A DNA stretch of 64,000 nt from Eubacteriales bacterium. GTDB taxonomy: Bacteria; Bacillota; Clostridia; Lachnospirales; Lachnospiraceae. The stretch covers positions 1-64,000 of the forward strand of contig JAUNGC010000010.1 of assembly GCA_030524745.1 (NCBI GenBank), written 5' to 3'. Under the pieces are notes generated by a model, which was not told the DNA's origin, did not search any database, and was given only the letters and a program-made list of their open reading frames with translations. Positions 55-16,862 of this stretch are shown here, in pieces (positions within the stretch are counted from its first letter, which is position 1; every line of letters starts with the position of its first letter). A program made the position numbers and the translations under genes.

Positions 55-58
55 TCAG

Positions 59-175: not shown

Positions 176-204
176 TTGCGGAATTGCTGTTTATCGGATA
201 TAAT
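176..204 (+). promoter_or_regulatory. Sigma-A-type promoter of the glycosyltransferase/peptide operon
   Basis: TTGCGG (176-181) and a perfect TATAAT (199-204) are separated by 17 nt. Transcription would start near 211, leaving a leader of about 75 nt before the first start codon. It is the only good promoter I see ahead of the operon that runs to about 16796. Confidence 0.7.
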
Positions 205-285
205 GATACCGGGAAAGGCATACCGGCACAGGGACGGCTGGCGGGAGATGGTCCGGGAAAGAAGAACGGAAGGCGGCGGGAAGGT

Positions 286-1812
286 ATGGCGGGTTACAGC
301 AAAGCTGACAGAAAAAATGACGATATGATAGAAATTGCTTATGCGATCCATGATGATTCCGGCTCCTATTATGAATATCTGGGGGTGTCCATGGTTTCCG
401 TCATGGAAAATACACGGGAAGTTTTGCGGTTTCATGTGCTCTGCGATGATACCCTGGCCGCGTCGGCGAAGGAAAAGCTGACGGCTATGTGTAAAGCTTA
501 CGGGCAGCGCATCTGTTTTCACAGGGTCGCGCCGGATGAAAGAATCTCTGTCACGGAGCTTTTGAAAGCCGGGTACAACGAGGGGATTTTGTACCGACTG
601 TATCTGCCGGAGTTGCTTTCGTCTGTCCGCAGGATCCTGTATCTGGATGCGGACATTCTGGCGAACGGAGATGTACGGAAACTGTGGGACGTGGATGTGG
701 AGGCATATGCGGCCGCCGGGCGCTGGGACCCGCCGCTGCTGGGATTTAAACCGGTGGAAGAACCGCTGCGGGCAAGGTGCCGGCCGTTCCGGGAGAGCAC
801 GGACTGGACGAAATACGTCAACTCCGGCGTGCTGGTGCTGAATCTGGAAAGGATCAGAAAAGAGCATCATCTGTGGGAAGAGGCCGTTTCTTTCTGGAAC
901 CGCTACGGTATGGTACTGCCGGATCAGGACGCGGTCAATTATATTCTGCGGGGAAAAATCCGCCTGCTCCCGCCCTGCTGTAATATGCCGAACCGGGATT
1001 GCCCGCAGCAGAGAAAGGGAATCTTTTATCACTATACTTATATGGGGCAGGAGCGGGAAACCTTAGATCCGGTTGACGAACTCTATCTCTCCTATTGGAA
1101 AAAAACGCCCTTTTACAGGGCCGGTTACGGAAAAAGAGAAAAGGCGGCCTTTCTGGGCGGGATGAAAAATCGTGCAGGGATATATGAGAGGCTGGAAAAA
1201 CTAGGGAAATTAGACCGGGAGGACGTCCTCAATTATGGGAGATGTCTTTATTGGAAAGGGGAATTCCAACAAGCCTATGCCTATTTGGCCGGTCGGGGTG
1301 CACAGGCGTCGGCGTTTCCCGATTACGGGGGGTGCGCAGAGCGGGAGCATGTCTGGGAGATGGATCGGGCGTTCCTCATGGCGAAGTCTTTAAGGGAGAT
1401 GAAAAGAACGGAGGAAGCAATAATCCTTCTGCAGGAGTCGCTTTATGCGGACGGCGACTGCGCCTTTCCGGAACATGATGCGCGCAGCATGGAGCAATGG
1501 CGCTTTCTGGGAGAGCTTTATTGCGAAACGGGGCGGTATGAAGAAGCCGGGGAAGCGTTTCTGCATTGCCTGTATTTCGGAACGCCGGAAAAGAATGCCT
1601 GCGCGCTGGCGGCGCTTTTTTGTCTGGTGAAGTGCATGCTTTGCATGGACAGGCTTTCGGAAGCGGAAACCTATTATACCATGCTGGATACGCTCGCGCC
1701 TCTGGACAACGGGGTGAAGCTGTGCGGTATCAGGCTGGAACGGGCAAGACGGAAAAAGGAGGCGGTATTATCCGGGAATTCAGCTGGGAAGCTTACGACG
1801 GAAGGGAAATAG
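286..1812 (+). CDS. GT8-family glycosyltransferase with C-terminal TPR-like region
   Basis: This is a retaining glycosyltransferase resembling LgtC/GlgA-type GT8 enzymes, about 508 residues. After a short N-terminus the GT8 fold begins with IEIAYAIHDDSG and LGVSMVSVMENT, and the metal-binding DxD is visible in YLDADILANGD (about residues 121-123). The downstream NSGVLVLNLE and DQDAVNYIL blocks are also typical of the family. The last 180 or so residues carry repeated helix pairs (LGELYCETGRYEEAGEAFL) that look like tetratricopeptide repeats. The reading frame is open from 85, but that ATG lies in the tRNA terminator and upstream of the promoter. I prefer ATG 286, preceded by GGGAAGG at short spacing; ATG 325, where homology begins, is the alternative. 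It is the first gene of the operon and overlaps the start of the radical SAM gene. The acceptor is unknown. Confidence 0.85.
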   Translation: MAGYSKADRKNDDMIEIAYAIHDDSGSYYEYLGVSMVSVMENTREVLRFHVLCDDTLAASAKEKLTAMCKAYGQRICFHRVAPDERISVTELLKAGYNEGILYRLYLPELLSSVRRILYLDADILANGDVRKLWDVDVEAYAAAGRWDPPLLGFKPVEEPLRARCRPFRESTDWTKYVNSGVLVLNLERIRKEHHLWEEAVSFWNRYGMVLPDQDAVNYILRGKIRLLPPCCNMPNRDCPQQRKGIFYHYTYMGQERETLDPVDELYLSYWKKTPFYRAGYGKREKAAFLGGMKNRAGIYERLEKLGKLDREDVLNYGRCLYWKGEFQQAYAYLAGRGAQASAFPDYGGCAEREHVWEMDRAFLMAKSLREMKRTEEAIILLQESLYADGDCAFPEHDARSMEQWRFLGELYCETGRYEEAGEAFLHCLYFGTPEKNACALAALFCLVKCMLCMDRLSEAETYYTMLDTLAPLDNGVKLCGIRLERARRKKEAVLSGNSAGKLTTEGK

Positions 1813-2945
1813 TTATTTGCGGCCCGCTTGACAGGTGCGTGCCCATTCTGCTCGCGTTTCCGGAGTCGTTTCCGGATACAATCCGGATCTGTGATGAGGC
1901 GCATGCCGGCATGGATTTTGCACGGCTTGTAAAGGCGGCCGGCATGGAGAAGCTGCAGCGCCTTTGTGTCCGGTTTATTTCCTGTGAGGAACTGGGACAG
2001 TTTCGGGACGTTTATGTGATTCTGGCGGGAAAAACGTATTTCCGGGCATACTGCAGGCATCTTAAGTATACGGGGCCGGCTGATTTTTATTCGGCGGTTC
2101 CGATTCTGCAGGACGGCTTTGACAAGCAGGACTACTTTGCGTATTTCACATCCTTGTACCGCAGGCGCAGGGAAGGAATTTTCTTCGGAGGCGTGGAGAT
2201 CGATCTGACAAAGCGCTGTACGCTGCGATGCAGGGAATGTGCAAATCTGATGCAGTATTACGACTTGCCGGAACGGATGCCGGGCGGAATCATACTGGAA
2301 TCGGTGAAACGCCTGCTGGATGCTTCGGACGGCGTTGCGATGGTCAAGATACTGGGAGGAGAACCGCTGCTGGAACAGGAACTGCTGGAAAAGCTGCTGC
2401 AGCTGCCTCAGCTTGTCAGCCAACAGAAGGTTCTGGGAATACAGATCATCACCAACGGAACGTTGCTGTTTCGGGAGAAACTGTTAAAGCGTATGAAGGC
2501 AAATCCGCTGGTGGGAGTTCTTTTGAGCAATTACGGCGCTTTATCTGCAAGGGAAGAGGAAATAAAAGAACAGCTTCGCGCTTACGGGATCCCGTTTGCG
2601 GAAATCGGGGAAGAGGATGTATGGCGGCGCTACGGCGATCCCCGCAGGGTGTATCAGACGCCCGGAGAGGCAAAGAAGCTGTTTGAAAAATGCAAATCGA
2701 AGGAAAACTGCTGTACATTGCTGGACGGCAGACTGTATGCCTGCCCGAGGGCCGCTCATGGGGAGGCGCTGGGCTTTTATCCGCCGAAGCGGGGGGAGAG
2801 CGTGGCGCTTATGGAGGAACCGTGGGACGCGGAGAGCATGCGGGAGAAACTGAAAGAGTTTTACTTCAGGGAAGAGGCGGTGCAGGCCTGTTCGTGCTGT
2901 ACCAACATGCGCGGCGCGCTGATCGGGCGCGCGCAGCAGATGTGA
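1767..2945 (+). CDS. Radical SAM protein with N-terminal Rossmann-like domain
   Basis: This is a predicted [4Fe-4S] radical SAM enzyme. CxxxCxxC is present as CTLRCREC (about residues 151-158 from the start used here), followed by the SAM-binding KILGGEPLL stretch. C-terminal cysteines (KENCCTLLDGRLYACPR and QACSCCTN) could bind an auxiliary cluster, as in SPASM or twitch domains. The first 110 residues read like a small nucleotide-binding fold (EIVICGPLDRCVPIL). Start choice is uncertain. A strong AGGAGG (1757-1762) is followed in frame by ATT at 1767 and ATC at 1770, with no ATG nearby. GTG 1722 and ATG 1566 lie deep in the upstream gene, and ATG 1911 would cut the N-terminal domain. A non-ATG start near 1767 fits best. 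Its substrate could be the peptide at 7368 or a sugar; the sequence does not decide. Confidence 0.8.
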   Translation: MIREFSWEAYDGREIVICGPLDRCVPILLAFPESFPDTIRICDEAHAGMDFARLVKAAGMEKLQRLCVRFISCEELGQFRDVYVILAGKTYFRAYCRHLKYTGPADFYSAVPILQDGFDKQDYFAYFTSLYRRRREGIFFGGVEIDLTKRCTLRCRECANLMQYYDLPERMPGGIILESVKRLLDASDGVAMVKILGGEPLLEQELLEKLLQLPQLVSQQKVLGIQIITNGTLLFREKLLKRMKANPLVGVLLSNYGALSAREEEIKEQLRAYGIPFAEIGEEDVWRRYGDPRRVYQTPGEAKKLFEKCKSKENCCTLLDGRLYACPRAAHGEALGFYPPKRGESVALMEEPWDAESMREKLKEFYFREEAVQACSCCTNMRGALIGRAQQM

Positions 2946-2978
2946 CGCCGGAAAGGAAACGGGAACAAAAAACGGCTT

Positions 2979-3977
2979 ATGGACGGACAGAAAACGGAAA
3001 ACCGGACGCTCAGCATCATACTTCCGGTTTTCAATGGGGAAAAAACGGTGCGGCGCAGCATAGAGTCCGTTCTTCGGGCAAAGAAGGTCCCGCTGGAACT
3101 GGTGATCGTTGACGACGGTTCCACGGACCGCACGGGAGAAATCTGCCGGCAGTACGCGAAAGCCTGCTCCTGCGTCAGGTTTTTTGGTCAGGAAAACCGG
3201 GGGCCGGGGGCTGCCAGAAACGCGGGGCTTCGCCGGGTGAGCGGCGCTTATGTGGGATTTATGGACGCGGACGACTGTTATGTGCCGGAAGCGTTGGAAA
3301 GGGCATGGGAAATTTTGAACGAAAAGCGGGCGGACGCGGTCTGCGTAGGGATCCGGACGTTTTTGCAGTCGGAATTTCCCGACGGAAAGGGAACGGTTCT
3401 CTATGAAGGCGATGACAGCCTGATTAGCGGAAGGGAAGCGTTCCGGAGAATGCTCGGCGGAGAAGGATTGGATTCCAACACCTATGCGAAGTTTTACCGA
3501 AGGGATATGCTTCCCGACGATCTGCATTTTTTTGAGGGAAGGCTGGGAGATGAGATCCCGGTCACTTACCGGATGCTTTTGTCCGCAGAACGGGTCTGGC
3601 TGATGAAGGGGACCGGATATCTGTACTGTATCGATGAAAGCGGAACGAGCCTGAGCGGCGTGCGGTTTGCGCCCTGCTACTTTGAGATGGCGGACCGGGC
3701 GAAGGAACTGTATGAGCTTGTGTGCGGGCAGTATCCGGACTTTCGGGAGGAAGCGGCGGGTTTTTATCTGGATCTGGCGCTGCAGTGCGTGGAGCGCATT
3801 GCCGGGCAGGAAGAGATACGGCCGTATGAAGAGGGGCTGGTCAGACTGCTGAAGGAACTCGGGAAGCATCGTGAGGAACTGAAAAGGACGCCGCATATCG
3901 GGCGGGAGCGAAAGCGGTGGCTGGCTTTTTTTCTGCTGTCGTGCCGGGCGGCGAAAAACAGGGATGATAGAAAATGA
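2979..3977 (+). CDS. GT2-family glycosyltransferase
   Basis: A GT-A-fold inverting glycosyltransferase of 332 residues. The N-terminus carries the classical GT2 pattern: SIILPVFNGEKTV, then VIVDDGSTDRT for nucleotide binding, GPGAARNAGL, and the metal-binding MDADDCY. No membrane segments are evident, so it should be cytoplasmic and use a nucleotide-sugar donor. It starts 33 nt after the radical SAM gene and overlaps the next gene by four bases (ATGA), which indicates translational coupling. The C-terminal third is not diagnostic of donor or acceptor. Its place in the peptide/exporter operon suggests action on the same product, which is inference. Confidence 0.85.
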   Translation: MDGQKTENRTLSIILPVFNGEKTVRRSIESVLRAKKVPLELVIVDDGSTDRTGEICRQYAKACSCVRFFGQENRGPGAARNAGLRRVSGAYVGFMDADDCYVPEALERAWEILNEKRADAVCVGIRTFLQSEFPDGKGTVLYEGDDSLISGREAFRRMLGGEGLDSNTYAKFYRRDMLPDDLHFFEGRLGDEIPVTYRMLLSAERVWLMKGTGYLYCIDESGTSLSGVRFAPCYFEMADRAKELYELVCGQYPDFREEAAGFYLDLALQCVERIAGQEEIRPYEEGLVRLLKELGKHREELKRTPHIGRERKRWLAFFLLSCRAAKNRDDRK

Positions 3978-5212
3978 AACGGAGAATTGCAATATCGGTT
4001 ATTATTCCGGCGTATAATGCGGAAAAATATATCGGAAAATGTCTGGAAAGCGTGAGAGGGCAGAGCGCGCCGGACGTGGAAATCCTGTGCGTGGACGACG
4101 GCTCTGCGGACACCACGTCGGATATCGTCCGCGCCTGCGCCCAAAAAACAAAGAATCTGCGGCTGATCCGGCATGAGGAAAACCGGGGACAGGCATATGC
4201 CAGAAATTGCGGGCTGCGGGAAGCGGCGGGCAAATATGTTTATTTTCTGGATGCGGACGATATGCTTCAGGGGGAGGATTCCCTGCAGCGCATGTATGAA
4301 CTGGCGGAAAAGGAAGAACTGGACTGCGTCACTTTCGGGTCAGAGGCGTTTTATGAGGATTTGGCGGCGCGGACAGAGTATCCCACGGCGCTGGCCCGGC
4401 ATGCTTCCTATGAAGGCGTTTTTGACGGCGAGGCGTATCTGAAGAGGCTGTTTGACAGCGGGGATTTTAAGCCGGCGGTCTGGATGCAGTTCTGGAACAG
4501 AGAATTTCTGCAAAAACAGGGGCTTTGCTTCGATGAGGAACTGCCGCCCTGCGAAGATCTTCTGTTTACCGTCTGCGCGTTTTGCAGGGCCGGGCGGATT
4601 GGGCATTTGAACCGGGTGATGCATCGGTATCTGTGTCGGACGGATTCCTCGTCGAGGGAGGTCAATCTGAATCTGTACAGGGTTCATGCGCTCTGCTATT
4701 TTCATATACAGGAATTTTGCCTGAAGGAGAGAGTCGGGACGGATACGTTCGCGGTGGTCACGGATTACTGCAGGAGTTTAAAAGACTGCGTGATGGATAT
4801 GGCGATCGCGCTGATCCGGAAAGGCGTGGATATCCGGACGGCGGAATTTGCAAATCCGGGATATGGGGTTTTGCTGGCGGAACTGCTGACCGGACGTTTC
4901 CTGCGGCTGAAGCGTTTTTTTGCCCCGCAGGAATATGAGGTGCTGCGCAAAAGCGGCAAAATCATTGTTTACGGGGCCGGCACGCTGGGAAAAGACACGG
5001 AAGCGCTTCTTGCCATGTTCGGGTTGGAGAATTTTGTCACGGCGGCGAATCACCGCTGGGGCGGCGCAGAAGAACAGGTTGTTTTGGAGGAACTAACGGA
5101 ATATAGAGAGGATGCGGTCGTTTTGATCGCGGCGTCGCGGGAAAATCTGGAAAAAAGAATCGCAAAAGTGACCCGGCTGGGTTTTCGGACTTATATTTGC
5201 ATGGATCAATAG
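3974..5212 (+). CDS. GT2 glycosyltransferase with C-terminal Rossmann-like domain
   Basis: A 412-residue GT2 enzyme. The catalytic domain shows ISVIIPAYNAEKYI, CVDDGSADTT, GQAYARNCGL and FLDADDML. From about residue 325 a second domain begins with KIIVYGAGTLGKDTEALL, a glycine-rich beta-alpha-beta motif like the small nucleotide-binding domains found at the ends of many surface-glycan transferases. A similar fold appears to make up the N-terminus of the nearby radical SAM protein. The start overlaps the previous stop (ATGA) and the stop lies just before the next GT2 gene. Donor and acceptor cannot be read from the sequence. Confidence 0.85.
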   Translation: MKRRIAISVIIPAYNAEKYIGKCLESVRGQSAPDVEILCVDDGSADTTSDIVRACAQKTKNLRLIRHEENRGQAYARNCGLREAAGKYVYFLDADDMLQGEDSLQRMYELAEKEELDCVTFGSEAFYEDLAARTEYPTALARHASYEGVFDGEAYLKRLFDSGDFKPAVWMQFWNREFLQKQGLCFDEELPPCEDLLFTVCAFCRAGRIGHLNRVMHRYLCRTDSSSREVNLNLYRVHALCYFHIQEFCLKERVGTDTFAVVTDYCRSLKDCVMDMAIALIRKGVDIRTAEFANPGYGVLLAELLTGRFLRLKRFFAPQEYEVLRKSGKIIVYGAGTLGKDTEALLAMFGLENFVTAANHRWGGAEEQVVLEELTEYREDAVVLIAASRENLEKRIAKVTRLGFRTYICMDQ

Positions 5213-5241
5213 ACGAAAAAAAGCGGCGGCAGGCGAAAAAG

Positions 5242-6324
5242 ATGGAAAAGGGTACGGACAAGCCGAAGACGATCAGCGTCTGCATGATCGTAAAAAATGA
5301 AGAAAAGGTGCTGGACAGGGCGCTGAAGGGCGTTTCCCGGTTCGCGGACGAGATTGTTGTGGTGGACACGGGTTCCTCTGACCGCACGATGGAAATCGCG
5401 GCGAAATATACGGACCGGATTTATGAGCATCCGTGGGAAGGGCATTTCGGGCGGATGCGCAACATTTCATACTCCTATGCCGTCTGCGATTATGTGATGT
5501 ATTTCGACGCGGATTATGAGATAGACGCGGAAAATGCGGACCGGATCAACCGGCTCAAGGAGACGCTGACGGTGGAGAAATCCGTCTGCGTGACCTATTA
5601 TTCGCCGGAGCAGAAGCTTCCGGTTATGCTCCATTGTATTTCCCTGCGGGACGGACGGAGGTGGGAAGGCGCGGTGCACGAGCGGCTTCCCCTGAAAGAT
5701 CCGGTTCTTTATACGGATATCGTGATCCGGCACGTGAAAAAGGAAGAACTGCACTATGAGAGAAATGTGCAGCTATTTCCGAAGCTGACGCCGGAAGAAC
5801 TGCGGGCGCATTACTGGCTGGCGGCGCAGTGCTACAGCGACAGCGTTATGGCGGACGCGTCCGGCTGGGCGGACTTTTTCTTTGAACTGGCGCAGCGGGG
5901 AGAATATGATTTTACGGACAAGCCTTCCCCGGCGGTGACGGCGGGCCATGTGTTGATGTATTACGGCAGATACCGGGAGGCCCTGAAATGGCTGGAAGCG
6001 TATCTGGCGGAGTCGGGACGCTGGCTGGAAATACATGTCCGCAGCCGGGGCGCGGCGGAGGGCGCTTGCGGCAGGGATGCGGATGCGTTTGTCGGAGCGG
6101 CGCTTTCCTGTGATGAAAAAGCCTGTAACTATGCCGTAAGGTGCGCATTGGGGTGCGGAGAATGGGTCCGCGCCGAAACGCTGAACCAAAGACTGAAGGC
6201 GTATCATCAAAATTCCCCTCTTTTTTTGCTGAACCGCTTACGGATAGAGCGGGCGCGAAAAAAAGAGGCGGGCAGACAGGAGGAAGCGGATGGAAATCAG
6301 CGTGTGCATGATTGTCAGGAATGA
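5242..6324 (+). CDS. SunS-like GT2 glycosyltransferase with TPR-like C-terminus (copy 1)
   Basis: About 360 residues. It begins with [19 protein letters not shown], has VVDTGSSDRT, an FGRMRNISYSYA segment, YFDADYEID as the DxD site, and a later GAVHERLPL block. The VHE element plus a helical repeat C-terminus is shared with the SunS-type S-glycosyltransferases of glycocin biosynthesis and with related GT2/TPR proteins. I chose ATG 5242, with AGGCG at suitable distance, over ATG 5197, which would overlap the upstream gene and has no clear ribosome site. Two paralogues sit at 6290 and 8579. Family resemblance supports a cytosolic protein or peptide glycosyltransferase, but specificity is unproven. 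Confidence 0.82.
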   Translation: MEKGTDKPKTISVCMIVKNEEKVLDRALKGVSRFADEIVVVDTGSSDRTMEIAAKYTDRIYEHPWEGHFGRMRNISYSYAVCDYVMYFDADYEIDAENADRINRLKETLTVEKSVCVTYYSPEQKLPVMLHCISLRDGRRWEGAVHERLPLKDPVLYTDIVIRHVKKEELHYERNVQLFPKLTPEELRAHYWLAAQCYSDSVMADASGWADFFFELAQRGEYDFTDKPSPAVTAGHVLMYYGRYREALKWLEAYLAESGRWLEIHVRSRGAAEGACGRDADAFVGAALSCDEKACNYAVRCALGCGEWVRAETLNQRLKAYHQNSPLFLLNRLRIERARKKEAGRQEEADGNQRVHDCQE

Positions 6325-7420
6325 GGAAGCGGTGCTGGAACGGTGCCTCAAATGCGCGGTGCAGTTCGCGGACGAGCTGATCGTGGTGGATACGGGATCG
6401 TCGGACCGGACGAAGGAAATTGCGGAAAAATATACCGACCGGGTTTACGACTATGTCTGGGACGACGATTTTGCCGCCGCCAGAAATTTTTCCTATGAAA
6501 AAGCCGCCTGCGACTATGTGATGTGGCTGGATGCGGATGACGATATCGAGCGGGAGGATATCGAACGGATTAAATTTTTAAAAAGGGATATGCCGTCCGA
6601 TACAGATGTGGTATATTTTAGATATACGGGAGATGCGGCGGAGGATAATCTCTTCGGAGATAATGAAGTGATGCGCGACAGACTGGTCCGGCGCAGCCTG
6701 CGCCCGGTTTGGGTGTACCCGGTTCATGAGGCGATTCCCATACAAAAAGAATGGAAAGAATTGTATCGTCCCGATATCCGGATTTTTCACCGGAAGCGGC
6801 GGATCAATGAAGAACGCCGGAATATCCGCATATTTGAAAGAAAGCTGTCGGAGGGCTTCGTGCCGGACAGCTTTAGCCGCAGCTATTATTGCAGAGAATT
6901 GTCCGTAGACGGAAGCCATGAACGGGCGGTGGAGGAATTCCACAGGCTTTTGCGGGAAGGCAGCCGCGGCGATATCGACTACGCCATGTTTTATTACATT
7001 CACAGCATGAAAAAGCTGAACCGCTGCGGGGAACTGCGAAAACGGCTGGAAGATTATGTGGAAACATACGGCGGGCAGGAAGCGGCGCTGTGCACGCTGG
7101 GGGATCTGTGCCTGCGCGACCGGGAGTACGAGCGGGCGGCGGCCTGGTATCGGGAGGCGCTGGCGCTGCAGGCGGATATCTGTGATAAGAACATTCATTT
7201 TCCGGCGTATCGGGAGTTTTTGCCGCTGCTGGGAATCGGAAAGGCATATATCCGGATGGGAAGGCCTGCGGAGGCGGCCGCCGCTCTGAAAAAGGCGGAA
7301 CGCATTCATCCGTCGTATGTGGAGCTGAAACTTTTAAAACTATATCTGGAAAGGATGGATAAGAAGCATGAGAGAACTGATGAAGAAGCTGATGGAAGCG
7401 GGAAAGGCGGACGCGCTTAA
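6290..7420 (+). CDS. SunS-like GT2 glycosyltransferase with TPR repeats (copy 2)
   Basis: 376 residues, with an AGGAGG ribosome site eight bases before ATG 6290 and a 35-nt overlap with the upstream gene. The catalytic part shows EISVCMIVRNEEAVLERCL, VVDTGSSDRT, DDDFAAARNFSYEKA, the metal site MWLDADDDIE and a PVHEAIPI block. The second half contains clear TPR-type helix pairs (LGDLCLRDREYERAAAWYREAL and LGIGKAYIRMGRPAEAAAAL). This closely follows the SunS layout of a GT2 domain plus TPRs. The last 53 nt overlap the start of the small precursor-like gene at 7368 in another frame, so peptide and transferase are probably translated in coupled fashion. Confidence 0.85.
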   Translation: MEISVCMIVRNEEAVLERCLKCAVQFADELIVVDTGSSDRTKEIAEKYTDRVYDYVWDDDFAAARNFSYEKAACDYVMWLDADDDIEREDIERIKFLKRDMPSDTDVVYFRYTGDAAEDNLFGDNEVMRDRLVRRSLRPVWVYPVHEAIPIQKEWKELYRPDIRIFHRKRRINEERRNIRIFERKLSEGFVPDSFSRSYYCRELSVDGSHERAVEEFHRLLREGSRGDIDYAMFYYIHSMKKLNRCGELRKRLEDYVETYGGQEAALCTLGDLCLRDREYERAAAWYREALALQADICDKNIHFPAYREFLPLLGIGKAYIRMGRPAEAAAALKKAERIHPSYVELKLLKLYLERMDKKHERTDEEADGSGKGGRA

Positions 7421-7589
7421 TTCGCTGGACGAGTTCATGGAGGCGGCAAAGGAACTGGGATATACACAGGAGCAGGTTGAGGAAGCGCTGGATGATTTCG
7501 ACGGGTTCCCGCTGGACGACGACGATCTGGATGAGATTGTCGGAGGAATGACGATGCATAAGGCGCCGATGAGGAACCGGGGAAGATGA
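7368..7589 (+). CDS. Putative RiPP precursor peptide with double-glycine leader
   Basis: A 73-residue peptide. Residues 1-60 form a helical, strongly acidic leader ending in [12 protein letters not shown] (GG at 59-60), with [16 protein letters not shown] before it. This is the pattern of Nif11/NHLP-type leaders cut by C39 peptidase exporters. The remainder is a 13-residue basic tail, [13 protein letters not shown], without Cys or Ser; Thr62 is the only hydroxyl residue. ATG 7368 has AAGGATGG about nine bases upstream and overlaps the previous gene by 53 nt; ATG 7380 is an alternative. A C39-type ABC exporter lies 2 kb downstream in the same operon. The precursor role is inferred from leader, size and context; the core may be modified or simply trimmed and exported. 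Confidence 0.75.
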
Positions 7590-7635
7590 TTCCCGGAGAT
7601 GTTCGGGGCGGAATCGGACGGAGCAAGCGGATGAA

Positions 7636-8589
7636 ATGATGAAAAAACGTGTGTTGGTTACCGGAGGCGCCGGGTTTCTGGGCGCGCATCTTTGCCGGAG
7701 ACTGATCCGGAAGGGCGCTGCCGTAATATGTCTGGATAATCTTTGGACAGGGAGGATGGATAACATTCGTTCTCTGGCGGCGCATCCGGATTTTACATTT
7801 GTCAGACATGACGTTACAGAGCCGTTTTACGCGGAGACGGATCAGATTTATAATCTCGCCTGTCCGGCCAGCCCTGCTCATTATCAGCGGTATCCAGTAG
7901 AGACCTGCAAAACGAGCGTGCTGGGGGCGATCAATATGCTGGAACTGGCGAAGCGCACGGGCGCAAAAGTTCTGCAGGCGTCCACTTCCGAGGTATACGG
8001 GGATCCGGAACAGCATCCCCAGACGGAGGTTTATAACGGGTGCGTAAATTCCACGGGGATCCGCGCCTGCTACGATGAAGGAAAGCGGGCGGCGGAAGCC
8101 CTGTTTTTTGATTATCACCGTCAGTACGGCGTGGATATTAAGGTGATGCGCATCTTTAATACCTATGGACCGGGAATGCAGCCCGGCGACGGACGCGTTA
8201 TCCCGAATTTTATCACGCAGGCGCTGGCGGGCAGGGACATTACCGTATACGGGGACGGAAAGCAGACCAGGAGCTTCTGTTATGTGGACGATGTGATCGA
8301 GGCGATGATACGGCTCATGGAAGCAGAGAATGGCTTTACGGGGCCGGTGAATGTGGGAAACCCGTGCGAATGTACGGTCGGGATGCTGGCGGAGCAGATC
8401 ATTGCGCGGACACAGAGCGGGTCGAAAGTCGTTTTTTCGCCCCTGCCGCCGGATGACCCGAAGCGGAGGCGGCCGGACATCGGGCTGGCGCAGAGGACGC
8501 TCGGGTGGAAACCTCTGATCGGCCTGGAGGAAGGGCTGGAGAGAACGATTGCCTATTACAGAACGGGGGCATGGACGGATGACGCCTGA
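7636..8589 (+). CDS. UDP-glucuronate decarboxylase (UDP-xylose synthase)
   Basis: A 317-residue short-chain dehydrogenase/reductase of the extended NDP-sugar epimerase type. The NAD-binding motif is [43 protein letters not shown] and the catalytic YDEGKR are highly characteristic of UXS enzymes, which convert UDP-glucuronate to UDP-xylose with tightly bound [13 protein letters not shown] and RSFCYVDDV complete the family pattern. No membrane anchor is visible. It directly follows the precursor peptide gene and overlaps the next GT2 gene by 11 nt. Its presence suggests that at least one transferase here uses UDP-xylose or a pentose made from it. Confidence 0.88.
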
Positions 8590-9388: not shown

Positions 9389-9621
9389 GGAACGAATCCG
9401 TTTTTCGGGAAAAAAGCCTGGAACGCATTTCATCACCGGAGGAGATCGGAGACTACATGAAGGTGACGACTCCGGGGATGTGGCTTGTGATGGCGGCGAT
9501 TCTCCTGCTGCTTGCTGCGGCTCTCATATGGAGCGTGACGGGCCGGATCGAGTCTGCCGTCGTGGTGGACGGGCAGGAGATGACAGAAAGTATCGCGCCG
9601 ATTACCTTTTTGATTGAGTAG
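9385..9621 (+). CDS. Miniature NHLP-type secretion (HlyD-like) membrane protein
   Basis: A 78-residue protein from GTG 9385, which overlaps the previous stop and is preceded by GAGGG. FREKSLERISSPEEIGDYMKVTTPGMWLV, followed by a single membrane helix (MAAILLLLAAALIWSVTGRIES), matches the N-terminal part of the NHLM/NHLP bacteriocin secretion protein, the membrane-fusion subunit that normally continues into a coiled-coil and barrel region. Here the frame stops about 25 residues after the helix. The ABC exporter gene follows 17 nt later with its own start, so this looks like a natural short form rather than recent decay; I see no continuation of the family in the other frames. It probably anchors to or regulates the exporter. 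Confidence 0.7.
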   Translation: MRNESVFREKSLERISSPEEIGDYMKVTTPGMWLVMAAILLLLAAALIWSVTGRIESAVVVDGQEMTESIAPITFLIE

Positions 9622-9638
9622 GAAGAGGACAAAAGTTC

Positions 9639-11843
9639 ATGGACAGAAAGATCAAAGTGCCGGTGACAGGCGGCGTGGCGAAGGTCCCGGTCATTCTGCA
9701 GCTGGAAGCGCTGGAGTGCGGAGCCGCCTGCCTTGCGATGGTTCTTGCATATTATAACAAATGGGTCCCGTTGGAACAGGTCCGGGTGGACTGCGGCGTT
9801 TCCCGGGACGGTTCCAATGCAAAAAATCTGCTGAAAGCGGCGAGAAGCTATGGGATGACCGCGAGGGGCTACCGCTATGAACCGGAGTCCCTGCGGGAAA
9901 AGGGAAAGTTTCCCTGCATTATACACTGGAATTTCAATCATTTTGTGGTGCTTGACGGTTTCCGGAAAAATCGGGCCATCCTGAATGATCCGGCCAGAGG
10001 TGTGACTGAGGTTTCCATGGAGGAATTTGACCGTTCCTTTACCGGGATCTGCATCCTGCTGGAACCGTCGGAGATCTTTGTGCCGGACGGCCAGAAAAAG
10101 AGCATGGCGGGCTTTGCGCGCAGGCAGTTGAAGGGCGCGGGGGAAGCCATGCTCTTTACCGCGCTTGTGTCCGTGGCGACGGCGCTGATCGGTGTAATCA
10201 GTCCTGTTTTTCCCAGGGTATTTCTGGACCGGCTGCTTACCGGAACAAATCCGGCGTGGATTTCCCCCTTCTTTTGGATACTAGCCGCTTTTGTGCTGAT
10301 TCAGATTGTTCTTTCCGGCATACAGGCGGTATATTCTCTGAAGCTTCAGGGGAAGCTGGCGATCAGGGCGAACGCGCGGTATATGTGGCATGTGCTGAGG
10401 ATGCCGGTTGAGTTCTTTTCCCAGCGGCTTTCGGGGGACATCGCGGCGCGAAAAAGCGCCAATGCCGGCATTGCGTCCACTTTGGTCAATACGCTTGCGC
10501 CGACCGCGCTGAATCTGGTCATGATGGCGGTCTATCTCACGATCATTTTGCGCTACAGCGTGCCGCTGACGCTGATCGGCATAGGGGGAATGGCAGTCAG
10601 CCTCCTTGTGAACCGGTACGTATCCGGCAGGCGCGTCAATATTTCCAGAGTGCAGATGCGCGACCGGGCGAAACTCGTCTCCGCCACGGTGACGGGGATC
10701 GAGATGATCGAGACGATCAAGGCCAGCGGGGCGGAGAACGGTTTTTTTGAAAAGTGGGCGGGCTGTCAGGCTTCCGTTAACACGCAGGATGTGAAGGCGC
10801 TGAAGCTGGATCGGTATTACAAACTGATTTTGCAGCTCGTTTCCGCACTGGTGAACACGGTGATTCTGGCGCTGGGCCTGTATCTGATTATGCAGGGACA
10901 GTTTTCCGTGGGCATGCTTCTGGCGTTTCAGACGATGCTCCATTCTTTTCTGACGCCTGTCACAGAACTTTCGACGGCGGGCAATACCGTGCGCGAGATG
11001 CGGGCGGACATGGAACGCATTGAGGATGTGATGGAATACCCGACGGATGTCGAATACGGAGAGGAAGGGACACGGCGGGAGGAAATCAGCTTTGATAAGC
11101 TGACGGGAAAGGTAGAACTGAGAAATGTGACGTTCGGATATTCCCGCCTTGCGCCGCCCCTGATCGAAAATTTCAGCATGACCGTGGAAGCGGGACAGAA
11201 GGTGGCTGTTACGGGGTGCTCCGGCTGCGGCAAGTCCACGCTGGCCAAACTCATTTCCGGCCTGTATAAGCCGTGGAGCGGCGAAATTCTGTTCGACGGG
11301 AAACCGATATCGGAGATTGACCGCAATATTTTTACCGGATCACTTGCGGTGGTGGATCAGGATATTACGCTTTTTGAGGATACCATAGCGAACAATATCA
11401 AAATGTGGGACAGTTCCATAGAGGATTATGAAATGATACTCGCTTCCAGGGATGCGAGCCTGCATGAGGATATTATGCAGAGGGACGGCGGATATCAATA
11501 CAAACTGGCGGAGGGCGGCAGAGATTTATCCGGCGGACAGAGACAGCGCATGGAGATCGCCAGAGTGCTTGCGCAGGATCCTACGGTTATCGTCATGGAC
11601 GAAGCGACCTCCGCGCTGGATGCCAGAACGGAATATGAGGTGGTGAAGGCCATTCAGGACAGAGGCATCACCTGTATTGTGATCGCGCACCGGCTTTCCA
11701 CGATCCGCGACTGTGATGAGATCATTGTTATGGAGCAGGGGAAAATTGCAGAGCGCGGCAGCCATGAAACGCTGATGGCGCGCCACGGCAGATATGAGGA
11801 ACTCATCTTAAGCGAACAGGAGGCGGCGCATGGGCTGGTTTGA
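9639..11843 (+). CDS. NHLP-type C39 peptidase/permease/ATPase exporter
   Basis: A 734-residue peptidase-containing ABC transporter (PCAT). The N-terminal C39 domain has the QLEALECGAAC active site with Cys27, His101 in HFVVLDG and Asp117 in NDPARG, so it should cut leaders after a double glycine. About six membrane helices follow (residues 165-430). The nucleotide-binding domain has Walker A GCSGCGKST, signature LSGGQRQRMEIAR and Walker B VIVMDEATSALD. It matches the family described as NHLP/NHLM bacteriocin export peptidase/permease/ATPase. The likely substrate is the double-glycine peptide at 7368. It overlaps the next ABC gene by 14 nt, consistent with two half-transporters made together. 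Confidence 0.92.
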   Translation: MDRKIKVPVTGGVAKVPVILQLEALECGAACLAMVLAYYNKWVPLEQVRVDCGVSRDGSNAKNLLKAARSYGMTARGYRYEPESLREKGKFPCIIHWNFNHFVVLDGFRKNRAILNDPARGVTEVSMEEFDRSFTGICILLEPSEIFVPDGQKKSMAGFARRQLKGAGEAMLFTALVSVATALIGVISPVFPRVFLDRLLTGTNPAWISPFFWILAAFVLIQIVLSGIQAVYSLKLQGKLAIRANARYMWHVLRMPVEFFSQRLSGDIAARKSANAGIASTLVNTLAPTALNLVMMAVYLTIILRYSVPLTLIGIGGMAVSLLVNRYVSGRRVNISRVQMRDRAKLVSATVTGIEMIETIKASGAENGFFEKWAGCQASVNTQDVKALKLDRYYKLILQLVSALVNTVILALGLYLIMQGQFSVGMLLAFQTMLHSFLTPVTELSTAGNTVREMRADMERIEDVMEYPTDVEYGEEGTRREEISFDKLTGKVELRNVTFGYSRLAPPLIENFSMTVEAGQKVAVTGCSGCGKSTLAKLISGLYKPWSGEILFDGKPISEIDRNIFTGSLAVVDQDITLFEDTIANNIKMWDSSIEDYEMILASRDASLHEDIMQRDGGYQYKLAEGGRDLSGGQRQRMEIARVLAQDPTVIVMDEATSALDARTEYEVVKAIQDRGITCIVIAHRLSTIRDCDEIIVMEQGKIAERGSHETLMARHGRYEELILSEQEAAHGLV

Positions 11844-14007
11844 CGAACAGATAAGACAGCGGATTGCAAACGATGATGAAATGTTTGCGGATGCGTTCGC
11901 GCAGATGGCAAATCTGGTCAGCGGCAGAAAAATTGCGGCTGGTTTTGCGGATAACCGGCAGATTGCCGTGGAAGCGGTGGGAGATATCCTGAAATATTAC
12001 CATGTCCGGGCGCAGGAGATCCCGGATAAGATGAAGGATATCAATGAAATACTGGAATTTCTTCTGCGCCCGTCCGGCATTATGAGGCGGACGGTCAGGC
12101 TGACGCCGCGATGGTATGAGGACGCGGCCGGCGCAATGCTGGGTACGAAGAAGGACGGAAGCGTGATCGCCATTCTCCCCGGCAGGATGCGCGGCTATTC
12201 CTATAAGGACTATGTGACGGGAAAAATAATAAGGATAAACAGAAAAAACGCCGCGGAAATTGAAGAAGAGGCAATCTGCTTTTATCAGCCGCTTCCGCTT
12301 CGGAAACTGAACGCGGCGGATCTTCTGCGCTATATTTTCCGGCAGCTTCATGCCGGGGATTATGCCCTGATGGTCGCCGCTGCTTTTGCGGCGGCGCTGG
12401 TTGGCATGGTGACGCCGCGCATAACCCGTTACCTGTACGGAGAGGTGCTGGACTATAAAAATACGGCGCTGCTGGCCGGCGCGATCCTGACGCTCTTGTG
12501 CGCGACGCTTTCGGGATGCCTGTTTTCTTCGGTAAAGGAAATTCTGAACGCCGGCATATCCGCGAAAATGAATCTGGCGGTGGAAAGCGCCATGATGATG
12601 CGCGTGCTCTCCCTCCCGGTGGATTTTTTCAAAAAATACGGCGCGGGGGAGCTGGCGGACCGGATGGAATACATGGGCAACCTGTGCGGTATGCTGTTCG
12701 ATGCGGTTTTTTCCGCGGGACTGACGGCGGTGTTTTCCCTGCTGTATATCGGACAGGTATTGGCATATGCGCCGGAACTGACGGCCCCGGCGCTTCTGGT
12801 GACGCTTGTGACTCTGCTGCTTTCCCTCGCCGCTTCCCTTCTGCAGATGCGCGTATCGGAGCGGCAGATGACGGAAGCGGGCAGGGAAAGCGGCATGGTT
12901 TATGCGCTCATCAACGGCGTGGCGAAGATTAAAAACGCCGGGGCGGAAAAGCGGGCGTTCGCCAGATGGGGCAGGCAGTATGCGAAGGCGGCGAAGGATC
13001 TGTATAAGCCGCCGATGTTTCTTCGGCTGAACGGCGTAATGATAACGGCGGTTTCCCTGTTCGGAACAATCGTCCTGTATGGCGCAGCGCTGCGTTCCGG
13101 GGTGACGGTGGCGGACTATATGGCCTTTAACAGCGCCTGGGGCATGGTAAACGGCGCGTTTGCTTCTTTTGCGGGAATTGCGGTCACGGCGGCGCAGATT
13201 CGGCCGATGCTGAAAATGGTGCAGCCGATTCTGGAGACGGAGCCGGAGATGGACGGAGGCAGGCATGTGGTCACGAGGCTTCGGGGTTCGGTAGAACTGA
13301 ACAATGTGTCCTTTCGCTACAATGACGCCATGCCCAATGTGCTGGACGATTTGTCCCTGAAAATCCGTGCCGGACAGTATGTGGCGATCGTGGGAAAGAC
13401 CGGGTGCGGCAAGTCCACGCTGATGCGCATCCTTCTGGGGTTTGAAAGGCCGCAGAGGGGCGCCGTTTATTATGACGGGAAGGACATCGCTTCGATGGAT
13501 TTAAAATCGCTGAGACAGAAAATCGGCGTTGTCATGCAGAACGGCAGGCTGTTTCAGGGGGACATTTATTCCAATATCGCGATCTGCGCGCCGCAGCTCA
13601 CGATGGAGCAGGCATGGGAGGCCGCGGAAATGGCGGGGATGGCGGAGGACATCAGGCGGATGCCGATGGGGATGAATACGCTGATTTCCGAAGGACAGGG
13701 CGGCATTTCCGGCGGACAAAGACAGCGGCTCATGATCGCGAGGGCGATCGCACCGAAGCCGAAAATCCTCATGTTTGACGAGGCGACGTCCGCGCTGGAC
13801 AATATCACGCAGCGGAAGGTGTCGGAATCGCTGGATAAACTGAAGTGTACCAGAATTGTGATCGCACACCGGCTCTCCACGATCCGCAGCTGCGACAGAA
13901 TCATCGTGCTGGATAAGGGCAGGATCGTGGAGGACGGCACTTATGAAGAACTGTTGGAGAAGAAAGGATATTTCAGTGAACTGGTGGAGAGACAGCGTGA
14001 AAGGTAG
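11830..14007 (+). CDS. NHLP-type ABC exporter permease/ATPase, second subunit
   Basis: 725 residues. The first 165 or so are a soluble domain (DEQIRQRIANDDEMFADAF onward) without the C39 active site, as is usual for the second NHLP-type transporter. Membrane helices span about 175-460, and the ATPase domain has GKTGCGKST, ISGGQRQRLMIARAI and ILMFDEATSALD. It probably pairs with the C39 transporter encoded immediately upstream to form a heterodimeric exporter. The stop lies just after the GTG start of the phosphatase gene, so translation continues through the operon. Confidence 0.9.
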   Translation: MGWFDEQIRQRIANDDEMFADAFAQMANLVSGRKIAAGFADNRQIAVEAVGDILKYYHVRAQEIPDKMKDINEILEFLLRPSGIMRRTVRLTPRWYEDAAGAMLGTKKDGSVIAILPGRMRGYSYKDYVTGKIIRINRKNAAEIEEEAICFYQPLPLRKLNAADLLRYIFRQLHAGDYALMVAAAFAAALVGMVTPRITRYLYGEVLDYKNTALLAGAILTLLCATLSGCLFSSVKEILNAGISAKMNLAVESAMMMRVLSLPVDFFKKYGAGELADRMEYMGNLCGMLFDAVFSAGLTAVFSLLYIGQVLAYAPELTAPALLVTLVTLLLSLAASLLQMRVSERQMTEAGRESGMVYALINGVAKIKNAGAEKRAFARWGRQYAKAAKDLYKPPMFLRLNGVMITAVSLFGTIVLYGAALRSGVTVADYMAFNSAWGMVNGAFASFAGIAVTAAQIRPMLKMVQPILETEPEMDGGRHVVTRLRGSVELNNVSFRYNDAMPNVLDDLSLKIRAGQYVAIVGKTGCGKSTLMRILLGFERPQRGAVYYDGKDIASMDLKSLRQKIGVVMQNGRLFQGDIYSNIAICAPQLTMEQAWEAAEMAGMAEDIRRMPMGMNTLISEGQGGISGGQRQRLMIARAIAPKPKILMFDEATSALDNITQRKVSESLDKLKCTRIVIAHRLSTIRSCDRIIVLDKGRIVEDGTYEELLEKKGYFSELVERQRER

Positions 14008-16426
14008 AACGAAACGACAGAGAGCCGCTTTTGCGGTATTGACAGCGATCGTACTTTTTCTGGCGATTTCCGGTTGGGGGATTATTGCGAGCGGGAAGCT
14101 GTCCGTTACCATCATTCATATTCCCATCATCATCGGGACGATTGTGCTCGGGCTGCCCGAGGGGCTGGCGCTTGCGGGGATATTCGGAATTTCAACCATG
14201 ATGAGGGCGGCGTCCTATCCGGAAGGATCTCTGGACGCATTGTTTCAAAACCCGCTTGTTTCCGTCTGGCCGCGGCTCATGATTCCCGTCGTTGTGCGGC
14301 TGGTATGGAAGGGAGTCAGAAGGATCGCGGACGATCACACGGTTTCGGCTGCGCTGATCTGCAGCGGATTCACCGCTGTTTTCGGCGTGCTGGCAAATGT
14401 GACGTTCGTGATGTCCGCGCTTGTGGCGCTGTATCCGGCAAGGCTCGGCATCACGGACAGCGTGTCGGCAAGCGCCACGGTGGTGACCAATATGATCGGT
14501 TATAACGTTGTGTTTGAGATCCTGACGGCAGTGCTGTGCGCCTGCGCCTTTGTGCCGGCGCTGCAGGGCTGGCTGGGGGAACGCAGAGAAAACGCGGACA
14601 AACCCATCCGCAAAACCTTTCAGAAATGGCTGCTGCTGTTTATCACCCTGGCTTTCTTTGCCATGCTGTTCTTTTTTTATAACATGCAGACGCGTCAGGA
14701 CGTAAAAGGCGCGGAGAAGCTGATGCAGGAAAAATGCGGGGATGTACTGCGGATGCTGCAGCTGGCGGAGGGACAGGATGTGGGAGTCCGTCTGACGGTC
14801 GGGGAAAGCGGGGCTGTTCTGCTCATAAAAGACGGCGTGATCGTATCCGGCGGCATGGAAGAATGGGAGGGAAAGAGCGCGTCTTTTATCGGCCTTGATG
14901 CGGATAAGACAGGACCGGGGGAACTGACCGGGGTGGAGATAGACGGCGCAGCGTTTACCGGCATGTACCGGGAGACGGATGATTACATCGTGTTTGTGCT
15001 GCTGCCGGACAGTGAGATTTATGCGGAGCGAAACGAACTTGCGGTTCTGCTTCTGGGCGGTCTTTTATGTCTGTTTCTTCTGATGTATGCCAATATTTCC
15101 CGGCTGGTGCAGAAAAATGTGGTGCATAAAATACAGGATGTGAACGATTCGCTGGCCCAGATCCGAAAAGGCAATCTGGAGGAAAAGGTATCGGTTTTGG
15201 GTAATACGGAGTTCGCCGCGCTGTCGGAAGGCATTAACGCCACGGTCAACGCCCTGAAGGAGACGATGGAAGAGGTTGCCGCAAGGATGAATCAGGAAAT
15301 GGAGTTTGCAAGGCAGATTCAGCATTCCGCGCTTCCTGTGACGGAGCAGGTGGCGCCGAAGAAAAAAGAATATGAAATACGGGGCGTCATGGAGGCGGCA
15401 AGGGAAGTCGGCGGGGATTTTTACGACTATTTTCTGATCGAAGAAAATAAGCTGGGGATTGTGATCGCGGACGTTTCGGGAAAAGGGGTTCCGGCGGCGC
15501 TGTTCATGATGACGGCAAAGACGCTGATTAAAAATTTTGTTCTGAACGGAAAGAGTCCCGCAGAAGCTCTGCAGCTTGCCAATGCGCAGCTTTGCGAAAA
15601 CAATGAAGCGGGAATGTTTGTGACGGTGTGGCTCGGCGTGCTGGATTATGATGCGGGAGAACTGGAATTTGCCAATGCCGGACATAACCCGCCGCTTTTC
15701 AAAAAGCGCGGCGAACCGTTTTTTTACATGGATCATAAGCGCTATAAACGCAGCATCATGCTCGGCATGCGGGAGGGAATTGCTTACAGGAACAACCGGA
15801 TTTCCTTTACGAGGGGCGACATGCTCTGCCTTTATACGGACGGCGTCACGGAGGCCAACAACAGTGAAGGAGAGCTGTACGGAGAGGAGAGGCTGAAACG
15901 ATGCGTGGAAAATCACTGGGAAAAGGAGCCGGAAGAACTGATACGGGCCATCCGGGAGGATATTGACCGCTTTGTGCAGGATGCGGAGCAGTTTGACGAT
16001 ATTACGATGGTGGTTTTGAAAATGAACGCGGAATGGAAAGAGACTGCGGTTGAGGCCGTATATGAGAATACGGCCGGGCTTGCTGCGTTCGTGGAGGAGA
16101 ATCTGCCGCAGGAGTGCAGCGTAAAAATCCGCCGTCAGATTGCGGTTGCATTTGATGAGGTGTATTCAAATGTGGTAAAATACAGCAGGGCGAAGCAGCT
16201 TGTCCTGCGACTGGGGATTCTGAAGGATACGATTTATCTGGAATTTACAGACGATGGGATCCCGTACAATCCGCTGGAATGCGGGGAACCGGATCTGCGG
16301 GCGCCCAGGGAGGAAAGGCCGGTCGGCGGGCTGGGGCTTTTTGTGGTGAAGCGGATCATGGATGAGATGGAATACCAGTATCGGGATGAGAAAAACAGGT
16401 TTACCATAGGAAAGAAATTCCTGTAG
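13997..16426 (+). CDS. Membrane SpoIIE-type PP2C phosphatase fused to RsbW-like kinase domain
   Basis: About 809 residues from GTG 13997 (GGAGAG six bases upstream); ATG 13943 lies well inside the upstream gene. Domain order: a multi-helix membrane region (residues 1-205) with GLPEGLALAGIFGIS and LFQNPLVSVWPRL, resembling ECF transporter S-components; a transmembrane helix near 209; an extracytoplasmic segment of about 120 residues; a helix near 347; a HAMP-like linker; a PP2C/SpoIIE phosphatase (REVGGDFYDYF near 469, ADVSGKGVPAALFM, YTDGVTEA, DDITMVV near 667); and a C-terminal GHKL ATPase of the anti-sigma kinase type (AVAFDEVYSNVVKYS near 716). It should both dephosphorylate and phosphorylate a STAS partner, and one is encoded next. 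The signal sensed is unknown. Confidence 0.85.
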   Translation: MKGRTKRQRAAFAVLTAIVLFLAISGWGIIASGKLSVTIIHIPIIIGTIVLGLPEGLALAGIFGISTMMRAASYPEGSLDALFQNPLVSVWPRLMIPVVVRLVWKGVRRIADDHTVSAALICSGFTAVFGVLANVTFVMSALVALYPARLGITDSVSASATVVTNMIGYNVVFEILTAVLCACAFVPALQGWLGERRENADKPIRKTFQKWLLLFITLAFFAMLFFFYNMQTRQDVKGAEKLMQEKCGDVLRMLQLAEGQDVGVRLTVGESGAVLLIKDGVIVSGGMEEWEGKSASFIGLDADKTGPGELTGVEIDGAAFTGMYRETDDYIVFVLLPDSEIYAERNELAVLLLGGLLCLFLLMYANISRLVQKNVVHKIQDVNDSLAQIRKGNLEEKVSVLGNTEFAALSEGINATVNALKETMEEVAARMNQEMEFARQIQHSALPVTEQVAPKKKEYEIRGVMEAAREVGGDFYDYFLIEENKLGIVIADVSGKGVPAALFMMTAKTLIKNFVLNGKSPAEALQLANAQLCENNEAGMFVTVWLGVLDYDAGELEFANAGHNPPLFKKRGEPFFYMDHKRYKRSIMLGMREGIAYRNNRISFTRGDMLCLYTDGVTEANNSEGELYGEERLKRCVENHWEKEPEELIRAIREDIDRFVQDAEQFDDITMVVLKMNAEWKETAVEAVYENTAGLAAFVEENLPQECSVKIRRQIAVAFDEVYSNVVKYSRAKQLVLRLGILKDTIYLEFTDDGIPYNPLECGEPDLRAPREERPVGGLGLFVVKRIMDEMEYQYRDEKNRFTIGKKFL

Positions 16427-16496
16427 ACAGGAAGAAGCGGTATATTTGCAGAGGCGGTCCGATGGGACGCGGCATGGACGAAAGGAAAGATTTCAT

Positions 16497-16796
16497 ATGC
16501 AGATTACGAAAAGTGTAACGGAAGGAACGCTGACAGTCAGGATCGAGGGAAGGCTGGACACGACGACGGCGCCGATGCTGGAAGGAGAACTGAAGCGTTC
16601 GGTGACGGACGGAACAGAACGTCTGATATTTGATTTTGAGAAAGTGGAATATATGTCGTCCGCAGGAATCAGGGTGCTGATGGCGGCGGACAGGGTGATG
16701 AGCAGACAGGGGGAAATGAAGTTGATTCATGTGAACGAGGACATTATGGAGATCCTTGACATGACCGGACTGACGGATTTTCTCACGATTGAGTAG
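16497..16796 (+). CDS. STAS-domain anti-anti-sigma (RsbV/SpoIIAA-like) protein
   Basis: A 99-residue single STAS domain starting at ATG 16497, with AAGGAAAG upstream; the frame is open from 16446 but without a good ribosome site. LTVRIEGRLDTTTAPMLEGEL and LIFDFEKVEYMSSAGIRVLM are diagnostic, with the phosphorylatable serine at 54 or 55. In known systems the unphosphorylated form captures a kinase/anti-sigma partner. The natural partner is the phosphatase/kinase fusion directly upstream. No sigma factor gene is present nearby, so the output may be exporter activity, another partner, or a sigma factor elsewhere. This is the last gene of the operon. Confidence 0.9.
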   Translation: MQITKSVTEGTLTVRIEGRLDTTTAPMLEGELKRSVTDGTERLIFDFEKVEYMSSAGIRVLMAADRVMSRQGEMKLIHVNEDIMEILDMTGLTDFLTIE

Positions 16797-16827
16797 AAAC
16801 GGCGGCGGGATGCTGCCGCTTGCGCCT

Positions 16828-16862
16828 GTCCGTCGGTTGCGCGACGGCAGGGCCGGACTTTT
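16828..16862 (+). terminator. Terminator closing the peptide/exporter operon
   Basis: GTCCG (16828-16832) pairs with CGGAC (16854-16858), enclosing an inner CCGTCG/CGACGG hairpin, and four T follow. The T-tract is short, so strength is uncertain, but the position between the STAS gene and the next promoter fits. Confidence 0.55.

Follow-up and report, generated by a model that had tools for sequence, protein, structure and literature searches.

What is made by a bacterial locus in which glycosyltransferases, a radical S-adenosylmethionine (SAM) enzyme and a leader-cleaving peptide exporter stand in one run of genes, and are the sugars meant for the peptide? The question is raised by a stretch of 64,000 nucleotides (hereafter the window) of the genome of a gut bacterium of the Lachnospiraceae (Eubacteriales bacterium, GenBank assembly GCA_030524745.1, contig JAUNGC010000010.1), which begins at base 1 of its contig (C59); the genome comprises 3.57 Mb in 63 contigs, with an estimated completeness of 93% and an estimated contamination of 5%. 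A single run of plus-strand genes, several of which overlap at their ends, extends from about 286 to 16796 in the order GT8, radical SAM, GT2a, GT2b, Sun1, Sun2, precursor, UDP-xylose synthase (UXS), Sun3, HlyD stub, ABC1, ABC2, SpoIIE-kinase and STAS. All the genes that an earlier note on this DNA had named, including GT8, the radical SAM protein, five PF00535 proteins, UXS, SpoIIE and STAS, are present there on the plus strand by matches to Pfam, NCBIfam and, for UXS, a solved structure. Promoter-like sites (15 in the run against 10.2 in shuffled sequences, standard deviation 4.0) and terminator-like sites (27 against 18.0, standard deviation 4.7) are not clearly more frequent than expected by chance, so that a single operon is deduced from the gene order alone. 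The reading favoured here, with a rough probability of 0.45, is that the exported peptide is glycosylated in the cytosol, in preference to a separate glycan module; the run would then be an accessory island for the production and export of a single short peptide.

ABC1 (9639..11843), an NHLP-type ABC exporter with a C39 peptidase domain (PF03412, 123.1 bits), scores above the equivalog cut-off of TIGR03796 (918.4 against 853.3 bits), and ABC2 (11830..14007), which is devoid of a peptidase, above that of TIGR03797 (722.6 against 709.4 bits). The earlier note had counted two exporters; judged by these models, the two proteins together form the ABC part of a single standard NHLP system, whose HlyD component had been overlooked. 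This component is a stub (9385..9621) of 78 amino acids from a GTG at 9385, a start inferred from relatives, or 92 from the open-frame ATG at 9343; it carries one membrane-like span, overlaps Sun3 and remains below the TIGR03794 cut-off (34.3 against 156.2 bits), matching model positions 1-50 of 421. Short HlyD forms of 74-99 amino acids recur in the exporter clade, for example in L047, L048, L050, L051, L165, L196, L207, L210 and L218. The C39 domain was described earlier as intact, and C27, H101 and D117, which we take to be its catalytic residues, are indeed kept in ABC1 and invariant across six aligned ABC1 proteins.

The precursor gene (7368..7589) lies inside the run, between Sun2, which it overlaps, and UXS. 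Its leader ends in DLDEIVGG and is followed by a core of 13 residues with a net charge of +4, one Thr and no Cys. That the gene is real and not a chance frame is indicated by a relative from another genus (48% identity, E 4.2e-17) and by the leader type of the clade. The leader models PF07862, TIGR03798 and TIGR03793 of Pfam and NCBIfam (Nif11/NHLP) returned no match to it, and no second precursor was found in the genome with the leader profile. With a double-glycine end in the same run as ABC models above their cut-offs, NHLP-type export of a double-glycine peptide, as originally proposed, is upheld.

Six glycosyltransferases accompany the exporter. These are a GT8 enzyme with a C-terminal TPR region (286..1812, possibly starting at 325; PF01501 88.8 bits, TPR_12 31.9 bits), whose best solved relative is LgtC (36.6 bits), and five GT2 proteins recognised by PF00535: GT2a (2979..3977, 128.7 bits), GT2b (3974..5212, 131.1 bits) and the GmaR/SunS-like Sun1 (5242..6324, 58.8 bits), Sun2 (6290..7420, 68.2 bits, with TPR) and the short Sun3 (8579..9388, 68.9 bits). 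The description of the last three as SunS-like is a loose one: they score 43.3, 34.3 and 47.6 bits, respectively, on the SunS model TIGR04195, the cut-off of which is 350, and the ordinary GT2b scores 35.3 bits. The best solved relative is the glycosyltransferase domain of GmaR, with 96.2 bits for Sun2 and 97.5 bits for Sun3, while SunS gives 32 and 48.2 bits, respectively (31-48 overall). GmaR is a flagellin glycosyltransferase and antirepressor. Two features of the run suit enzymes that act on a cytosolic acceptor: its glycosyltransferases have no clear membrane span, save a borderline stretch in GT8, and no flippase, polymerase or priming transferase is among the matches of the run proteins (the rest of the genome was not searched).

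The association of these transferases with the exporter is repeated in one genome of another genus, G250, where a Sun2-type transferase is followed by a Cys-free precursor, HlyD, ABC1 and ABC2, with STAS and SpoIIE genes upstream. Its ABC1 is 64% identical to that of the window; its Sun2-type transferase, which directly precedes the precursor, is the best relative of Sun2 outside the window, and a Sun3-type transferase lies 7.3 kb beyond ABC2 on the other strand (Sun3 is 50% identical to a G250 transferase). The G250 precursor passes PF07862 (27.5 against 23.8 bits) and fails TIGR03798 (27.7 against 32.3 bits). In a tree of 36 rows, chosen by similarity to Sun2 and by what lay in those regions, Sun2 is sister to the transferase of the G250 exporter locus (support 100/99), and Sun1 and Sun3 form a clade with a second G250 transferase (100/100); the branches of the G250 Sun2-type enzyme and of Sun1 are long, and linkage between the two G250 transferases is possible, so that they do not count as two independent events. 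A profile built from Sun3 and its G250 counterpart exceeds 200 bits, among 397 genomes of the family, only in the window (561 bits; Sun1 238 bits) and in G250 (703 bits), the next genome reaching 190 bits; both sequences went into the profile, so it is the gap that counts. This and the other family searches used samples of 200, 329 or 397 genomes out of a larger group. The proposed link between transferases and exporter is thus borne out in G250, where the Sun2 and Sun3 lineages recur beside the exporter.

Several observations weigh against glycosylation of the peptide. A comparison of the neighbourhoods of exporter relatives had been set beforehand as the test, and its outcome is mixed: exporters of this clade mostly stand without these transferases, with G250 as an exception. 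None of 80 named exporter loci (L161-L240, the best 80 of at least 577 confirmed in a scan with ABC1) has a Sun, GT8, radical SAM or UXS relative within 10 kb at E 1e-5; at least 3.5 kb of upstream sequence is available for 57 of them and at least 9 kb for 43, and GT2b-type matches of 40-55 bits occur in two. At another exporter locus, L073, a radical SAM match of 20 bits falls under the 30-bit limit of the count. Locus counts were made over all frames, as gene calling in GC-rich loci is biased towards long antisense frames. Within the family, 27 loci bear ABC1; L140 had been picked by its transferase match and stands outside the unbiased count, and the other 26, chosen without regard to these transferases, have none of them within 10 kb. 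No exporter stands in the regions read around the rows closest to the Sun2 pair in the tree (G074 and G156, support 92/79). The linkage of transferase lineage and exporter is thus known from two genera only, and the full gene set was found nowhere else among the loci surveyed. The G250 locus itself is without relatives of GT8, the radical SAM protein, GT2a, GT2b and UXS, and holds a LanM with another precursor, which its transferase may serve. Ser, Thr and Cys are all missing from the G250 core (LAPKGIFNIRKDNNNKYL), and that of the window has one Thr, so the two share no usual acceptor; this want of a common acceptor residue in the two exporter-linked cores is the main objection to peptide glycosylation. 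Moreover, short Cys-free cores are common in the exporter clade without these transferases.

The closest relative of the window precursor is also in G250, elsewhere in the genome, and the 19.9 kb around it contain no relative of the transferases or the exporter of the run. As an observation apart, the G250 exporter region (L140/L141, G250:C5) is a composite NHLP cluster with LanM, a SPASM-type radical SAM protein, two precursors, GmaR/SunS-like transferases, a MATE protein and a formyltransferase/LPG-synthase fusion.

If the peptide is nevertheless the acceptor, the following pathway can be proposed. By its sequence the precursor is made in the cytosol, where the transferases of the island may build a sugar chain on it or on a partner of it; Sun1-3 would be the likeliest peptide-attaching enzymes, and GT8, GT2a and GT2b would extend the chain. 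UXS (7636..8589), a UDP-glucuronate decarboxylase (350.9 bits to 4gll, residues 3-310), would provide xylose, and either of two nucleotide-sugar dehydrogenases that score over cut-off elsewhere in the genome, in keeping with this scheme, could be a putative source of its UDP-glucuronate. The radical SAM enzyme would modify a sugar. By family, the C39 domain of ABC1 is predicted to cleave behind the double glycine, and the product to leave the cell through ABC1/ABC2 and the HlyD stub, and the SpoIIE-kinase/STAS pair may form a partner switch that gates the expression or the activity of the system. The fullest version of this scheme is unlikely to hold in all its parts: a new glycopeptide class in which a Cys-free, basic peptide of 13 residues would carry an oligosaccharide that contains xylose and is altered by the radical SAM enzyme; a dedicated GmaR/SunS-like lineage and GT8/GT2 extenders would assemble it on the precursor in the cytosol, and an NHLP C39 system switched by SpoIIE/STAS would then cut and export the product. 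Should the sugars go onto the peptide, this would be a new kind of glycopeptide pathway, in which multi-sugar glycosylation of a peptide is coupled to an exporter that removes its leader, and it would be useful for glycopeptide production.

The radical SAM protein (1767..2945; PF04055, 39.3 bits) was placed earlier in a candidate RiPP system, and its sequence and gene context point elsewhere. No ATG, GTG or TTG lies near the expected start of its gene; an ATT/ATC at 1767-1770 behind AAGGAGG fits the relatives and is the likely start, the last earlier in-frame codon of the ATG/GTG/TTG kind being a GTG at 1722, inside GT8. A CxxxCxxC motif and further conserved Cys are present in an alignment of 14 rows, and the N-terminal, Rossmann-like part has a weak likeness to the quinovosamine dehydrogenase Rossmann domain (20.3 bits). 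The closest solved radical SAM entry is 7wzv (47.8 bits). The models for maturases of ribosomally synthesised and post-translationally modified peptides (RiPPs) are failed by a wide gap (CcpM 34.5 of 500 bits, PapB 31.8 of 340 bits), and the best model score is that of MoaA (37.3 of 284 bits). Relatives at E 1e-20 occur in 11 of 397 family genomes, this one included, and none was found in a scan of a wider genome contig collection. Nine of 13 regions around them hold a GT2a-, GT2b-, Sun2- or UXS-type gene of at least 40 bits, the other four (L097, L101, L108 and L109) have no such sugar-type gene, and the ABC1/C39 exporter occurs in none of the 13. The 18 neighbours annotated in five of these regions include GT1 enzymes, a polysaccharide deacetylase, FkbM methyltransferases, a flippase and a UDP-glucose-type dehydrogenase, as well as an aminotransferase, a second radical SAM protein, a Schlafen-like protein, an oxidoreductase, an APH-type kinase and unmatched proteins. 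Since the relatives stand mostly among sugar genes and never beside a C39 exporter, the enzyme probably acts on a sugar; a radical SAM-modified RiPP was rejected on the maturase models and this gene context. A viperin-like role was also rejected, as the match to PADLOC pVip reaches 27.8 bits only. Region L099 combines, within 20 kb and in the absence of an exporter, a Sun2-type transferase (56 bits) with a radical SAM relative and a SpoIIE gene.

The same context of the radical SAM relatives, which in one annotated region includes a flippase, lends itself to a second explanation, a possible one to which we give somewhat less credence: two modules share the island, one exporting an unmodified short basic peptide (a signal or bacteriocin) through the NHLP system under SpoIIE/STAS, the other, a glycan module of transferases, UXS and radical SAM enzyme, altering a surface or storage glycan, perhaps for self-protection or as the output of the signal. 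The absence of these transferases from all 80 named exporter loci fits this explanation, as does a survey with a leader regular expression near 106 ABC1-bearing loci (of 113 given), by which 69 precursors were identified in 35 loci. Of these, 31 have cores of at most 20 residues, a group into which the window core fits; 26 of the 31 are without Cys, 11 have a net charge of +2 or more and 18 contain Pro, and genes of the Sun, GT8 or UXS types are not near them. Among the 38 longer cores 14 are without Cys and 8 have a net charge of +2 or more. Separate modules would, on the other hand, not be expected to interlock as these do, with the precursor between Sun2 and UXS and the HlyD gene overlapping Sun3, nor would both the Sun2 and the Sun3 lineages be expected beside an exporter again in G250, and the run, to which this search was confined, yielded neither a flippase nor a polymerase or priming transferase. 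Two small NHLP systems, L047 (2470-2664) and L048 (3292-3495), each have one short basic Cys-free core (NIVYQKNRPGAPKY and KYFRPTRNGRVS, respectively) and few other genes of such kind nearby; these peptides are possible unmodified signals. A different arrangement is seen in L061, where an NHLP locus holds five long double-glycine precursors in a row with a YcaO protein, SpoIIE and STAS.

An improbable third explanation is that the GmaR/SunS-like enzymes glycosylate another cytosolic protein, such as flagellin, a regulator or the partner-switch proteins, and that the exporter is incidental. The likeness to GmaR would agree with it, and Sun2 relatives are widespread at E 1e-30 (137 of 329 family genomes, this one included), with ABC1 in none of 18 and none of 2 Sun2-match regions outside G250. 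However, the run showed no flagellar genes (no genome-wide search was made for them), and the Sun2 and Sun3 lineages differ in the tree from the common ones and stand beside the exporter in both genomes that have them. An intact transferase block without an exporter, which the earlier note had named as a sign against its own reading, was not seen in the 13 radical SAM or the 20 Sun2-match regions. That reading, a radical SAM-modified, S-glycosylated RiPP of the glycocin type, the cores of which are Cys-rich with disulfides, is very improbable and was rejected, as the gene set with an NHLP exporter and the weak TIGR04195 and maturase scores that speak for it are outweighed by a core without Cys, TIGR04195 scores of 34-48 bits against 350 and the want of a C39 exporter in any of the 13 radical SAM regions.

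Control of the system may lie with the last two genes of the run. The first encodes a membrane SpoIIE-type PP2C phosphatase fused to an anti-sigma-type kinase domain (13943..16426, possibly from a GTG at 13997; PF07228 178.6 bits, PF13581 (HATPase_c_2) 52.4 bits) with seven transmembrane-like stretches, and the second a STAS anti-sigma antagonist (16497..16796, open frame from 16446; TIGR00377 74.6 bits, over cut-off, and PF01740); phosphatase, kinase and antagonist of a partner switch are thus all in the run. Of the 80 named loci, 44 have a SpoIIE or STAS relative in the vicinity of ABC1, as do 24 of the 33 with at least 9 kb on both sides, as compared to 1 of 13, 0 of 18 and 0 of 11 comparison regions, which are not matched in length; in the family, 8 of the 27 loci have one, L140 included. 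The exporter is linked more strongly with SpoIIE/STAS than with the transferases, apparently as a general trait of its clade; this recurrence points to partner switching as the control of clostridial NHLP export. In L047, a sigma factor gene of the extracytoplasmic function (ECF) type adjoins the exporter. At the level of titles, abstract openings and term counts, no publication joining NHLP export with SpoIIE/STAS or with these transferases was found in the open literature searched.

The locus was also compared with known systems. The NHLP/NHLM system (TIGR03794/03796/03797) comprises a C39 ABC protein, a second ABC protein, an HlyD-type subunit and a double-glycine precursor nearby (PMC2887384), all of which have counterparts here; in the window, however, only a stub of HlyD is left, the system is joined by transferases, UXS and a glycan-type radical SAM protein, and no recognised RiPP modification enzyme is present. 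The Lachnospiraceae LahT/LahA system of the Nif11 type (PMC6363468) shares the C39 peptidase-exporter and the double-glycine precursor, but has nine diverse Nif11-type precursors against one in the window. The string 'glycosyl' occurs 0 times in the text of the former paper and 0 times in the main text of the latter. Glycocins with SunS-type transferases (PMC12457901, PMC8620827) likewise have GT2 transferases beside an exported peptide, whereas the window has a core without Cys, six glycosyltransferases and SunS model scores far under the cut-off. Listeria GmaR (PMC9638930) contains the GT2 domain nearest to Sun2 and Sun3 among solved structures, but the window enzymes are linked to a peptide exporter and not to flagellar regulation. 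The G250 locus is like the window in its Sun2-type transferase, Cys-free precursor, HlyD, ABC1, ABC2, SpoIIE, STAS and Sun3-type transferase; unlike it, G250 adds LanM, the SPASM-type radical SAM protein, MATE and the formyltransferase/LPG-synthase, and is without GT8, UXS and the glycan radical SAM enzyme.

The run is bordered on the left by the 3' part of a tRNA-Gln(CTG) gene (1..55, plus strand; 95-100% identity over 54-60 bases to tRNA-Gln genes of the same genus, ARAGORN), inside which the contig begins, and on the right by the first host gene, an acyl-ACP thioesterase gene (17017..17736, plus strand; PF01643, 83.0 bits). In G405 of the same genus (L261), about 200 bp lie between the end of the tRNA-Gln (7016) and the start of the thioesterase match (7217), the corresponding points in the window being 55 and 17019; this empty-site evidence is from one genome only. 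A tRNA-Gln is present in 4 of 11 same-genus loci (L261, L260, L257 and L258) and in none of the other seven; in L260, 2.1 kb separate it from the thioesterase gene, and in L257 and L258 it adjoins that gene in the opposite orientation, unlike in L261. The GC content of the run is 54.6%, as against 49.8% for the remainder of the window. On the basis of the empty-site comparison and the higher GC content, the run is probably an accessory island. No integrase was seen, the contig ending at the tRNA. An ABC2-type subunit at E 1e-100 was found in 2 of 13 genus genomes, this one included, among the candidates scored; the second of these is G404, whose 13.7 kb contig bears no transferases. A plasmid or phage origin was rejected, as the Sun3 relatives in 18 plasmid and 5 phage records are all below 60% identity, with at least 80% coverage of Sun3 in one plasmid record and no phage record. 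Searches of viral contigs returned no ABC1 relatives, and the best 80 of 359 Sun3 relatives there are 26-51% identical in the best segment. Outside the island, a YhcG/DUF1016 nuclease gene at 42816-43856, with 34% GC among host genes of about 44-53% GC, matches PADLOC PDC-S02 strongly (451 bits) and is a candidate defence gene.

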